From positions 806,001 through 870,000 of the forward strand of contig NC_016456.1 in assembly GCF_000235365.1 (NCBI RefSeq): a stretch of 64,000 bases of DNA, written 5' to 3'. Within the stretch, counting starts at the first letter, position 1. Each line of letters begins with the position of its first letter. The translations under genes were made by a program, and so were the position numbers. The DNA is from Eremothecium cymbalariae DBVPG#7215 (lineage: Eukaryota; Ascomycota; Saccharomycetes; Saccharomycetales; Saccharomycetaceae). The notes beneath the pieces were generated by a model. That model ran no database searches and was not told where the DNA came from. It was given only the letters and a program-made list of their open reading frames with translations. Positions 2,075 through 61,334 of the stretch are shown in pieces.

Positions 2075-2102
2075 GGTCCGTGCAGCGCGCGCTGCACGGA
2101 CC
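2075..2102. repeat. Perfect 28-bp palindrome, no spacer
   Basis: GGTCCGTGCAGCGC is followed directly by its exact reverse complement, giving 14-bp arms and no loop. It lies about 710 bp upstream of the RSP5 ATG and 680 bp upstream of the DSE1-like ATG. No target-site duplication is visible in the flanks. Confidence 0.95.
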
Positions 2103-2812
2103 GCTTGCGTTAGGCTCCCCGCAGGCGCGCCATCCCGAAAAACCGTTTTATGCTTGTTCATGCAGGCACGTATGCGCTTACATAATTCGGAATCATGTGA
2201 TCGCCACATGGCCGGGTAATCTCAGTATGGTCGGGTAACAACAAAGGTCGGTTCGAGGCTCCTCATTTTGGCGTTACCCGGAGTCCTCCAACATCATCCT
2301 CGCTCTAACCGGCAAATTAAGAACTTTTCTGGAGGCTGGCTCCTCCCAAAAAGTGACTAAATTACAAAGACGTCCGCATGGTATACAACAAGACTCCAGC
2401 AAAGGGCAAAAGAGGCAAGTAGATTGCCTTTGATATCTGTGTTCTAGCCAGCTTCTAATTAATAAGGAAGGTGTCGTTGTTATAACTCAGTAGATTGTCA
2501 AATAGGGTCGGTACGAAGTTGTTTTCAACATATTATTAGTATAATCTACGGTATCGTTTTCTATCGTTTTTTGGGCTCGCTCCTTTTTTATTGCTGGTAG
2601 TGTCCCCCCCCCCCTCCTCCTCCTCTCCTCGTGTACAAGACTACAGAAGAGTTAGATAAGGAAGTTAACGGTATAAGAAAGTGTATTCATATTTGTCGGT
2701 TGAGGTTTAAGTAGGCTATACGTGTATTTCTACTGAGAGAGTTGCTTTTATAAAAAAAATAAGGAAGCTGGTAAGTTGGAAGGGAGTGTTAGTTTTTTTT
2801 GGTGTTGAAAAG

Positions 2813-5338
2813 ATGTCTATTACAGTGAAGTTAGTTGCGGCCGACTCTCTTTATAAGAGGGATGTGTTCCGTTCTCCAGACCCGTTTGCTGTGCTTACGA
2901 TCGATGGGTCTCAGACGAAGTCTACAAGCGCTGCGAAGAAGACATTAAATCCTTATTGGAATGAGAAGTTTACGTTTTACAATGTGACGGTGAATTCTAT
3001 ATTGACTATTCAGGTTTTTGATCAGAAGAAGTTTAAAAAGAAGGATCAAGGGTTTTTGGGGGTTATCAATGTTCGGATTGGAGATGTTTTGTCGCATTTT
3101 GATGAGGGTATGGCTAGTCCCACGTCTGGAGTATTCCGAGAGGAGATGATTACCAGAGATTTGAAGCGATCTAATGATGGGATGAATGTGAGTGGGAGGC
3201 TAATTGTGGTGTTGTCTAATTCTGTTCCAGAAGGGAATAATGTGCTGTCGTCTAATGGGATGGATAACCTGACCGTACAGCCTTCGATGGCTGGGGACGA
3301 AGGACGTTCGGCCAGCCACTCTGTGCTTTCATTGCCAAGGACAAACGCTTTACAAGTTTCAAACAATTTACAGAGTGTGAATCACCAGGCGAACGCCACG
3401 ATACCTGGCAGCTATATTTCTCATGGTAGTGTGAATAACAATACCATTCATATGAACAGCCACAATGGCAACGTAAACACCAGTGATGATGTGAACAACA
3501 ACAACAACAACAATAATAATAATAATATCGGCAATAGCAGTGTTAATACTAATCAGAATAGGCAGTATTCTTCATTCGAAGATCAATATGGCCGTTTACC
3601 TCCTGGTTGGGAGAGAAGGACGGACAACTTTGGTCGTACCTATTATGTTGATCATAACACGCGGACCACTACATGGAAGAGGCCCACTTTGGATCAGACT
3701 GAATCTGAACGTGGTGACCAAATGAATGCTAATACCGAATTAGAAAGAAGGCAACACAGGGGTAGGACATTGCCGGGCGGTCTGGCTTCCGACAACGCTG
3801 CAGTTACTGTCCAAACAAGTTCTGGTACTAGTACCCCTGCAGTTAATGGTACGGCTGCCGCTACATTTGCAGCTACTGGCGCTACCACCTCTGGACTGGG
3901 TGAGTTGCCTCCCGGCTGGGAACAGCGATTTACTCCAGAAGGCAGAGCATACTTTGTCGACCATAACACAAGAACAACTACTTGGGTGGATCCAAGGAGA
4001 CAGCAATATATTAGAACATATGGGCCTGCAAACAATACCATTCAGCAGCAGCCGGTGTCTCAACTAGGTCCCTTACCATCCGGGTGGGAGATGAGATTAA
4101 CGAATACGGCACGGGTTTATTTTGTAGACCACAATACCAAGACCACTACCTGGGATGACCCGAGACTGCCTTCCTCTCTTGACCAAAATGTTCCGCAGTA
4201 TAAGCGTGATTTTAGGCGTAAAGTGATATATTTCAGATCACAGCCATCATTGAGAATCTTGCCTGGGCAATGTCATATTAGAGTTCGTCGAAAGCATATA
4301 TTTGAGGATGCTTATCAAGAAATCATGAGACAGACACCCGAAGATTTGAAGAAGAGATTGATGATCAAATTTGATGGTGAAGAAGGTTTGGATTACGGTG
4401 GAGTTAGTAGGGAATTCTTCTTCTTACTTTCCCACGAAATGTTCAATCCTTTCTATTGTTTGTTTGAATACTCATCGCATGACAACTACACTATTCAAAT
4501 TAATCCAAATAGCGGTATCAATCCAGAGCACTTGAACTATTTCAAATTTATAGGACGAGTAGTTGGCTTGGGAGTTTTCCATAGAAGGTTTTTGGACGCC
4601 TTTTTTATTGGTGCTTTGTATAAGATGATGTTACGCAAAAAGGTGGTGTTGCAAGACATGGAAGGGGTGGACTCAGATGTTTACAATTCACTGAAATGGA
4701 TTCTCGAAAACAGCATAGACGGCATCTTGGATTTGACGTTCAGTGCCGACGATGAAAGGTTTGGCGAACTTGTAACAGTTGATTTGAAACCAAAAGACAG
4801 GAATATTGATGTTACTGATGAGAACAAAAAAGAATACGTGGAATTGTTTACACAGTGGAAGATTTGCAGCAGAGTTGAAGAACAATTTAAGGCATTCATT
4901 GATGGCTTTAACGAACTAATCCCTGAAGACTTAGTCAATGTATTTGATGAACGTGAGCTAGAATTATTGATAGGTGGTATAGCTGAAATTGATGTCGAAG
5001 ACTGGAAGAAACATACAGATTACCGTGGCTACCAGGAATCAGATGAGGTGATTAAGTGGTTCTGGAAGTGTATTTCAGAATGGGATAATGAGCAGAAAGC
5101 TCGTCTATTGCAATTTACAACAGGTACCTCTCGGATTCCTGTAAACGGCTTCAAAGATTTACAAGGATCAGACGGTCCTAGAAGGTTCACCATTGAAAAA
5201 GCTGGCGAAGTTCAACAGTTGCCAAAGTCGCATACCTGCTTCAATAGGGTTGATTTGCCATCTTATCCTGATTATGAAACCTTGAAACAGAAGTTGACGT
5301 TAGCTGTTGAGGAAACAATCGGTTTTGGTCAAGAGTAA
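2813..5338 (+). CDS. RSP5: HECT-type ubiquitin ligase Rsp5 (NEDD4 family)
   Basis: E3 ubiquitin ligase of 841 aa (809 in S. cerevisiae) that ubiquitinates membrane transporters, Spt23/Mga2, RNA polymerase II and others. Domain order is visible: an N-terminal C2 domain (about 1-130), an Asn-rich linker, three WW domains near residues 262-291, 364-393 and 420-449, each with LPPGWE or LPSGWE and a TTTW core, then a HECT domain to the end. The catalytic Cys is in HTCFNR at residue 809, and the protein ends GFGQE as in the family. The open frame extends upstream through a TTG, but the first ATG is at 2813 and gives MSITVKLVAADSLYKRDVF, matching the known Rsp5 start. The poly-Asn stretch (AAC/AAT) near 3495-3530 lengthens the C2-WW1 linker. 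Identification is secure. Confidence 0.98.
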   Translation: MSITVKLVAADSLYKRDVFRSPDPFAVLTIDGSQTKSTSAAKKTLNPYWNEKFTFYNVTVNSILTIQVFDQKKFKKKDQGFLGVINVRIGDVLSHFDEGMASPTSGVFREEMITRDLKRSNDGMNVSGRLIVVLSNSVPEGNNVLSSNGMDNLTVQPSMAGDEGRSASHSVLSLPRTNALQVSNNLQSVNHQANATIPGSYISHGSVNNNTIHMNSHNGNVNTSDDVNNNNNNNNNNNIGNSSVNTNQNRQYSSFEDQYGRLPPGWERRTDNFGRTYYVDHNTRTTTWKRPTLDQTESERGDQMNANTELERRQHRGRTLPGGLASDNAAVTVQTSSGTSTPAVNGTAAATFAATGATTSGLGELPPGWEQRFTPEGRAYFVDHNTRTTTWVDPRRQQYIRTYGPANNTIQQQPVSQLGPLPSGWEMRLTNTARVYFVDHNTKTTTWDDPRLPSSLDQNVPQYKRDFRRKVIYFRSQPSLRILPGQCHIRVRRKHIFEDAYQEIMRQTPEDLKKRLMIKFDGEEGLDYGGVSREFFFLLSHEMFNPFYCLFEYSSHDNYTIQINPNSGINPEHLNYFKFIGRVVGLGVFHRRFLDAFFIGALYKMMLRKKVVLQDMEGVDSDVYNSLKWILENSIDGILDLTFSADDERFGELVTVDLKPKDRNIDVTDENKKEYVELFTQWKICSRVEEQFKAFIDGFNELIPEDLVNVFDERELELLIGGIAEIDVEDWKKHTDYRGYQESDEVIKWFWKCISEWDNEQKARLLQFTTGTSRIPVNGFKDLQGSDGPRRFTIEKAGEVQQLPKSHTCFNRVDLPSYPDYETLKQKLTLAVEETIGFGQE

Positions 5339-61108: not shown

Positions 61109-61286
61109 AACAATCAGCCCTGCAGCCGCCTTCTTTGCCCCGCTTCTCCGGGGATATGCATTTTTCTTTTCCGGCAGTCATGGGTGACACTTCCCACGAA
61201 TGTGTGGGGTTGGGTTCTGCGCGGATCTCTCGCGCGTCCTCTTATCAATGGTTATGAAAGGTCCATGTCCCAGAGACGTGCGTGAT

Positions 61287-61300
61287 GCCCTTGCAAGGGC
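61287..61300. repeat. Perfect 14-bp palindrome
   Basis: GCCCTTGCAAGGGC, directly left of the alternating purine-pyrimidine tract. Confidence 0.85.
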
Positions 61301-61334
61301 TGTGCGCACACACGCGCGCGCGCGCGTGTGTGTG
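61301..61334. repeat. 34-bp alternating purine-pyrimidine tract with 26-bp palindrome
   Basis: From 61301 to 61334 every step alternates pyrimidine and purine: a CA block, a 14-nt CG block and a TG block. Within it 61307-61332 is an exact palindrome (13-bp arms). Such DNA readily adopts Z form. Confidence 0.93.

Follow-up and report, generated by a model that had tools for sequence, protein, structure and literature searches.

Short GC-rich hairpins of Eremothecium cymbalariae as candidate scars of fold-back template switching

Perfect inverted repeats in the window

The window analyzed here is the whole 64-kb stretch C8:806001–870000 of Eremothecium cymbalariae DBVPG#7215, whose genome comprises 9,669,424 bases in 8 contigs (40% guanine plus cytosine, GC). 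It carries a set of short perfect inverted repeats—hairpins, with two reverse-complementary arms around a spacer of a few nucleotides or none. Genes in the window are of budding-yeast type, the NSA2 homologue being nearest, among matches with a stated name, to Saccharomycetaceae proteins, and contig ends carry tandem copies of the 24-bp telomere repeat described in the literature for this species. The original prediction listed eight perfect sites with arms of 12–14 bp and spacers of 0–5 nt, most of them GC-rich; all eight were found, with arm GC of 0.64–0.83 in seven and 0.17 in the exception, 38464–38487.

Four of the eight lie in a GC-rich island at 60500–61700 (GC 0.57 vs. 0.39 and 0.33 in its flanks), within a divergent spacer of 2.3 kb that separates a MIP-channel gene (58392–59942, − strand) from an open reading frame (ORF; 62289 onward, + strand) that, from its sequence, is probably glycerol-kinase-like. 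Three are perfect inverted repeats at 60751–60781 (arms 14 bp, spacer 3), 60885–60914 (14 bp, spacer 2), and 61082–61108 (12 bp, spacer 3); the fourth, 61307–61332, is a perfect palindrome (13 bp, spacer 0) made of CA and CG dinucleotide runs. Outside the island, a perfect palindrome at 2075–2102 (14 bp, spacer 0) occupies a divergent spacer, to the left of a HECT/WW/C2 gene that is presumably RSP5-like. The AT-rich (adenine plus thymine) perfect palindrome at 38464–38487 (12 bp, spacer 0) lies between an ENTH gene and a polyubiquitin gene, and the perfect repeat at 38855–38887 (14 bp, spacer 5) has a midpoint that precedes the polyubiquitin ORF by 187 bp. The polyubiquitin gene itself (39058–39519, + strand) holds just two ubiquitin units (153 aa). 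The site at 56776–56806 (14 bp, spacer 3) falls within an ATG10-like ORF (56514–57143, + strand) and, extended to 56772–56810, forms an 18-bp stem with one mismatch.

Two further sites are listed at lower arm length or perfection. The repeat at 32995–33018, in a divergent spacer, had been predicted with 10-bp arms; it is perfect over 11 bp, with a spacer of 2 nt. A weaker site at 28652–28686 has 13-bp arms with one mismatch, as predicted, around a measured spacer of 9 nt.

Excess, anatomy, and placement

The excess anticipated over random DNA is real. For arms of at least 12 bp and spacers of 0–6 nt, the window holds 8 sites, against a mean of 0.01 in 100 dinucleotide shuffles within 500-bp blocks (maximum 1) and 0.06 in 100 global shuffles (maximum 1). 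A sample of 200 kb of C1 and C2, picked by coordinate prior to inspection, holds 10 sites with arms of at least 12 bp once rows above 90% AT are dropped, against 0.10 in 60 shuffles; per 50-kb block the counts are 2, 5, 3, and 0. A chance origin is ruled out by these shuffles. The sample rate of 5 per 100 kb corresponds to ~480 sites genome-wide (95% Poisson range roughly 230–890); the window rate, 12.5 per 100 kb, is higher, as would be expected for one chosen on account of this feature. The hairpin excess is thus genome-wide and not peculiar to the window. With arms of at least 10 bp and spacers of 0–8 nt, the density is 3.4 inverted-repeat bp per kb in the sample and 5.5 in the window. Most counts exclude arms above 90% AT, for example TA runs in C2a. 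Two palindromes, one of CA/CG at 61307 and one of CAG at L030 1849, pass this filter, and the former was dropped in the orientation and arm-word counts.

Three further stretches, L028, L029, and L030, were chosen for pattern matches and stand outside the random sample. They include the longest stem observed (28 bp, spacer 3; L030 1429–1487, C7:611429–611487) and the second longest (26 bp, spacer 2; L028 6964–7017, C4), and L029 contains no inverted repeat with arms of at least 10 bp. By eye, the 28-bp arms hold imperfect 8-bp tandem repeats, with one unit more in the right flank than in the left; such repeats make copying an easier origin than base-by-base change.

Patterns were also searched over all 9.67 Mb. 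GGTCC-N10-30-GGACC occurs at 40 places, against 120 for the backward control, so inner pairing alone is informative: 6 of the 40 pair perfectly to the loop, vs. 0.15 expected, and of these the window contains two and the 200-kb sample one. For GCGGCA-N3-30-TGCCGC, found at 19 places vs. 3 in the control, 9 pair to the loop where ~6.5 are expected, and only the three with arms of at least 11 bp (20, 14, and 11) carry weight. GCGGC-N0-5-GCCGC (76 places; backward control 48), set beside the same words at spacers of 20–25 (49; control 26), gave no surplus for the short spacer relative to its own control, and the 20–25 set includes about four long hairpins.

Spacers are short. Among intergenic arms of at least 12 bp, 15 have spacers of 0–5 nt (about 0 expected, TA runs adding to spacer 0), 1 has a spacer of 6–8 nt, and 3 have spacers of 9–30 nt (0.3 expected); in ORFs, 5 fall at 0–5 nt and 1 at 21–30 nt. 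Across all DNA sampled, 30 arms of at least 11 bp range from 11 to 28 bp and are distributed over spacers 0, 1, 2, 3, 4, and 5 as 5, 2, 5, 9, 6, and 3, with half (15/30) at spacer 3 or 4. In the same 30, the half-arm next to the loop has a GC of 0.71, the far half 0.59 (P = 0.02 between halves), and the flank 0.49. Short real inverted repeats (arms 7–9 bp, n = 102) have GC of only 0.32–0.33, unlike the GC-rich long ones.

Stems mostly end where the perfect arm ends: gapped extension found nothing scoring at least 3 beyond the arm in 22 of 24, the other 2 comparing with 0.25 expected. Past the first mismatch, 18 arms of at least 12 bp gave 57 pairs vs. 41 expected. Over 304 kb, 40 kb of it nonrandom, stems scoring at least 11 with 0, 1, and 2 mismatches number 26, 5, and 2 (shuffles 1.4, 0.6, and 0), so that 7 of 33 are imperfect; among stems of at least 14 bp the counts are 14, 5, and 2. 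Had stems arisen perfect and then only decayed, one-mismatch stems should be about as common as perfect ones, which suggests that stems are young, quickly removed, or re-perfected. G-T and A-C account for 5 of 9 in-stem mismatches, numbers too small to test RNA selection. Further copies of an arm are found within 400 bp, as a shared 9-mer, in 4 of 24 cases.

Placement is uneven. With genes called as ORFs of at least 130 aa, some possibly wrong, divergent spacers (23 kb) contain 13 intergenic sites with arms of at least 11 bp, tandem spacers (32 kb) 4, and convergent spacers (9.6 kb) 0. They occupy 7 of 119 intergenic segments vs. 14.3 expected, two segments holding 10 of 16; the AT filter removes the palindrome at 38464 from this segment count. 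When hairpins are masked, local GC reaches 0.48 or more at 9 of 16 hairpins vs. 9.4% of intergenic positions, and unmasked, 11 of 16 lie inside the 16 of 182 windows with GC of at least 0.5. Hairpins are concentrated in a small number of long, GC-rich, mostly divergent promoters. The nearest ORF start is at least 460 bp away for 13 of 17 intergenic sites and 138–219 bp away for the other 4; by the usual length of leaders, most hairpins probably lie outside 5′ leaders. Two GC-rich stems from outside the random sample, at L028 6964 and L026 1662, stand 61 and 100 bp past an ORF end, so promoters are not the sole location.

Two clusters deserve individual description. A 3.4-kb divergent spacer beside an HMG-box gene (C1b 27238–30599, C1:527238–530599) holds six hairpins with arms of at least 11 bp, and the 12-bp arm at C1b 29231 has an overlapping direct copy of itself just before it. 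To the right of the window, L026 1662–1836 (C8:871662–871836) carries a perfect 16-bp stem and a one-mismatch 21-bp stem 96 bp apart, the first of them 100 bp past the end of an L7Ae-family ORF.

An orientation control qualifies the picture. Repeats of at least 12 bp in the window plus the 200-kb sample, with simple repeats dropped, number 17 inverted, 16 direct, and 22 mirror. One array at C1a 17086–17291 accounts for 6 of the 16 direct and 19 of the 22 mirror repeats; 6 of the 16 direct repeats are in ORFs, and of the 17 inverted repeats 12 occupy 12 intergenic places. The two richest segments, with 10 of 16 hairpins, contain one direct repeat of at least 12 bp (window 60525). Inverted repeats are the commoner kind inside islands, not across the genome as a whole. 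The array itself, intergenic at C1a 17086–17321 (C1:217086–217321), is tandem and mirror-symmetric and dominates the counts of direct and of mirror repeats.

Seven sites with arms of at least 11 bp lie in called ORFs, including C2a 48148 and 48774, in overlapping opposite ORFs that are possibly not genes. Three of the seven, in RCY1-like, HFI1-like, and ATG10-like genes, were compared at the protein level with distant homologues. In the RCY1-like gene (158 homologues found, 8 chosen for alignment), the hairpin encodes an alanine run within a variable linker; it exceeds 7 of the 8 by one residue and falls two residues short of Saccharomyces cerevisiae, and the run could also be codon-repeat growth. 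The hairpin region of the HFI1-like protein aligns ungapped to the best solved Hfi1, and its 11-bp arm could be partly chance. A word search with the ATG10-like protein matched itself alone, and solved structures were used in its place: the hairpin codons fall in a linker with no extra residues relative to 4ebr (a weak match, E 0.00018), and a stronger structure match, Kluyveromyces marxianus Atg10, starts directly after the hairpin. At the protein level the three genes lack a hairpin-sized insertion, which does not by itself demonstrate replacement of an arm.

Origin of the hairpins

We consider it probable, at roughly 60%, that the hairpins are scars of fold-back (intrastrand) template switching, retained where constraint is weak; their creation is read from the pattern of extant sequence. 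Short spacers, a GC-rich loop side, stems that mostly do not continue past the arm, the lack of insertion, and the lack of common sequence all fit this process. A nascent or broken 3′ end would fold back on a short GC-rich self-complementary seed next to a loop of a few nucleotides, copy the preceding 10–28 nt as their reverse complement, and then rejoin its template or be ligated to the other end, the new arm displacing the earlier sequence. The GC-richer loop-side half is expected under this scheme, because the seed would sit at the loop. Stems would be mostly purged from constrained coding DNA and would survive in long, weakly constrained promoters, above all in GC-rich islands, in which breakage or fork stalling could be common. 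The predominance of perfect stems would come either from their youth or from re-perfection by repeated switching.

Published systems lend support to the steps. A 4-bp inverted repeat in S. cerevisiae became 11 bp through template switching (PMC8604942), ribosomal RNA (rRNA) stems changed at once with loop length 4 enriched (PMC8794818), fold-back inversions at yeast breaks are mostly about 5–34 bp (PMC11724301), and quasi-palindrome mutation occurs in yeast under high transcription without RNase H2 (PMC3820800).

Several results weigh against fold-back switching. Direct repeats are overall about as numerous as inverted ones, and arms of 7–9 bp at intergenic spacers of 9–30 nt show a mild excess (151 vs. 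about 104), so the short-spacer rule is clear for long arms only. The GC gradient within the arm weakens when the window and the 200-kb sample are taken alone (P = 0.06, n = 24), and chance inverted repeats in shuffled DNA lean slightly the same way (0.38 vs. 0.34, n = 21). Spacer 3 is the largest class (9/30), yet loops of 3 are depleted in rRNA events (PMC8794818); palindromes with spacer 0 (5/30) are not favored by simple fold-back; and the yeast break experiment had a 41-nt loop and yields insertions (PMC11724301). RNase H2 loss raises quasi-palindrome mutations (PMC3820800), and the RNase HII family is present in this genome. A SAE2 family search gave no match, but control genomes were equally without one; neither family search showed a repair-gene loss. 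Finally, the mostly divergent placement would equally fit a function.

The original prediction had offered template switching that perfects quasi-palindromes, or selection for promoter cruciforms or RNA hairpins. Switching is the better supported of the two, and its perfecting component only in part. That chance imperfect inverted repeats were perfected stepwise by repeated switching, instead of being made at once, is a tentative possibility; the gradual and one-step variants can coexist, and our confidence in them overlaps. One or two mismatches in 7 of 33 stems, including a near-perfect 22-bp stem at C1b 29526–29574, together with the surplus of pairs past the first mismatch (57 vs. 41) and the 2 of 24 stems extended at threshold, argue for gradual change, while the 22 stems without scored extension and the lack of GC richness in short inverted repeats argue against it. 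That the hairpins are cis-elements under selection, regulating flanking genes as DNA cruciforms, as DNA hairpins, or as RNA hairpins of promoter-derived transcripts, we regard as unlikely, although the promoter enrichment behind this part of the prediction is real. Divergent spacers hold 13 of 17 intergenic sites (tandem 4, convergent 0), perfect pairing predominates, and arms are GC-richer than flanks, all as selection would have it; the arms nonetheless have no common sequence, mostly lie far enough from ORF starts (at least 460 bp in 13 of 17) to be probably outside 5′ leaders, are confined to 7 of 119 segments, and occur in ORFs too, and the window has no Rfam family. GC-rich short arms also extrude poorly as cruciforms. 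Promoter enrichment may instead reflect weak constraint and GC-rich islands.

Two further alternatives are very improbable. Unit insertion of a dispersed family of miniature elements would account for the similar size (24–33 bp) and shape that the eight sites of the window share. Against it, 24 arms of at least 11 bp in the window and the 200-kb sample are no closer to one another than shuffled arms (longest common word 7 vs. a mean of 7.45; pairs sharing a word of 6 or more, 10 vs. 11.5), arm lengths vary from 11 to 28 bp, the 10-bp flanks, inspected by eye, carry no target-site duplication, and a hairpin-sized insertion is lacking from all three of the ORF sites that were compared; such an element is largely refuted. 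The arms are thus unrelated, as predicted, and the set is not an ordinary mobile repeat family. GGTCC, which starts two window sites, fails as a family mark: only 6 of 40 GGTCC-N10-30-GGACC places are hairpins, and their inner arms differ. A known structured RNA is likewise ruled out in the window, where an Rfam search gave 0 matches at gathering score. The usual errors of 454 sequencing are homopolymer indels. An assembly or sequencing artefact draws some plausibility from the 454 reads behind the published assembly (PMC3276169) and from a possible homopolymer error elsewhere in the window, yet 40x coverage is reported (PMC3276169), and reverse-complement copies of 11–28 bp clustered in GC-rich intergenic segments are not homopolymer indels.

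Relation to known systems and wider meaning

As in template-switch footprints, perfect short-spaced inverted arms exceed what composition gives, and in the three ORF sites compared the change appears in place, with no net hairpin insertion. A close likeness is to template-switch repeats in S. cerevisiae genes (PMC8604942), which share perfect short arms from a short seed, in-place substitution, and occurrence in coding genes. In that system, arms are 7–11 bp apart from one of 16 bp, and a strain tree was used to place the events; in this genome, arms extend to 28 bp, events are inferred, and sites are mainly intergenic and GC-rich. Fold-back insertions at yeast double-strand breaks (PMC11724301) likewise are short reverse-complement copies of local DNA (~5–34 bp), but they are insertions at a break with a 41-nt loop, whereas the present spacers are 0–5 nt. 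RNA hairpins made by template switch (PMC8794818) share one-event creation or repair of perfect stems; those are functional rRNA stems with loops of 4 enriched and loops of 3 depleted, whereas here loops of 3 are common and sites are mostly probably untranscribed.

Comparison with other yeasts rests on published descriptions (PMC6420913, PMC13155455). In S. cerevisiae, inverted repeats with units of at least 10 are called rare, an AT-rich class is enriched near poly(A) sites, and a second class, not AT-rich, lies 30–60 bp past start codons (PMC6420913); across eukaryotes, perfect inverted repeats are mainly AT-rich with spacer 0, at a mean density of 1.91 inverted-repeat bp per kb (PMC13155455). 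Perfect short-spaced arms and a non-AT-rich class are common to both yeasts, but arms of at least 12 bp are frequent here, mostly GC-rich, and mostly upstream of genes. The 30 arms of at least 11 bp (those above 90% AT dropped) have mean arm-half GC of 0.59–0.71, unlike the AT-rich repeats of poly(A) sites, and gene 3′ ends are represented by 0 sites in convergent spacers and by the two nonsample stems, at distances of 61 and 100 bp past ORF ends. Given the AT-rich character of eukaryotic perfect inverted repeats and the rarity of long units in S. cerevisiae, the hairpins look like a new form of a known footprint. Among papers listed by searches of the Eremothecium/Ashbya and wider inverted-repeat literature, no title or abstract opening gives an account of such hairpins.

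If fold-back switching is the source, a small, well-assembled genome would hold several hundred natural fold-back events with arms to 28 bp, and the hairpins could act as a natural record of a rarely seen mutation process. Sister species would then allow rate, seed length, loop preference, and switching direction to be estimated outside mutants and reporters, and would let one examine whether the GC islands of promoters are hotspots of breakage; a caution would also follow, that perfect promoter hairpins are not necessarily functional elements. More speculative, and in our view rather doubtful, is that hairpin clusters mark hotspots of breakage and fold-back repair: GC-rich promoter islands, perhaps sites of meiotic breaks and GC-biased conversion, would keep making and re-perfecting hairpins, hairpin density would be a genome-wide map of self-primed repair, and this lineage would stand far above S. 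cerevisiae.

Elsewhere in the window, at 39720–45277 (− strand), ECM29 is divided between two ORFs that overlap in different frames, and the stretch they share contains an A7 run. The split could reflect a homopolymer miscall by 454 sequencing, a genuine frameshift, or a programmed one.

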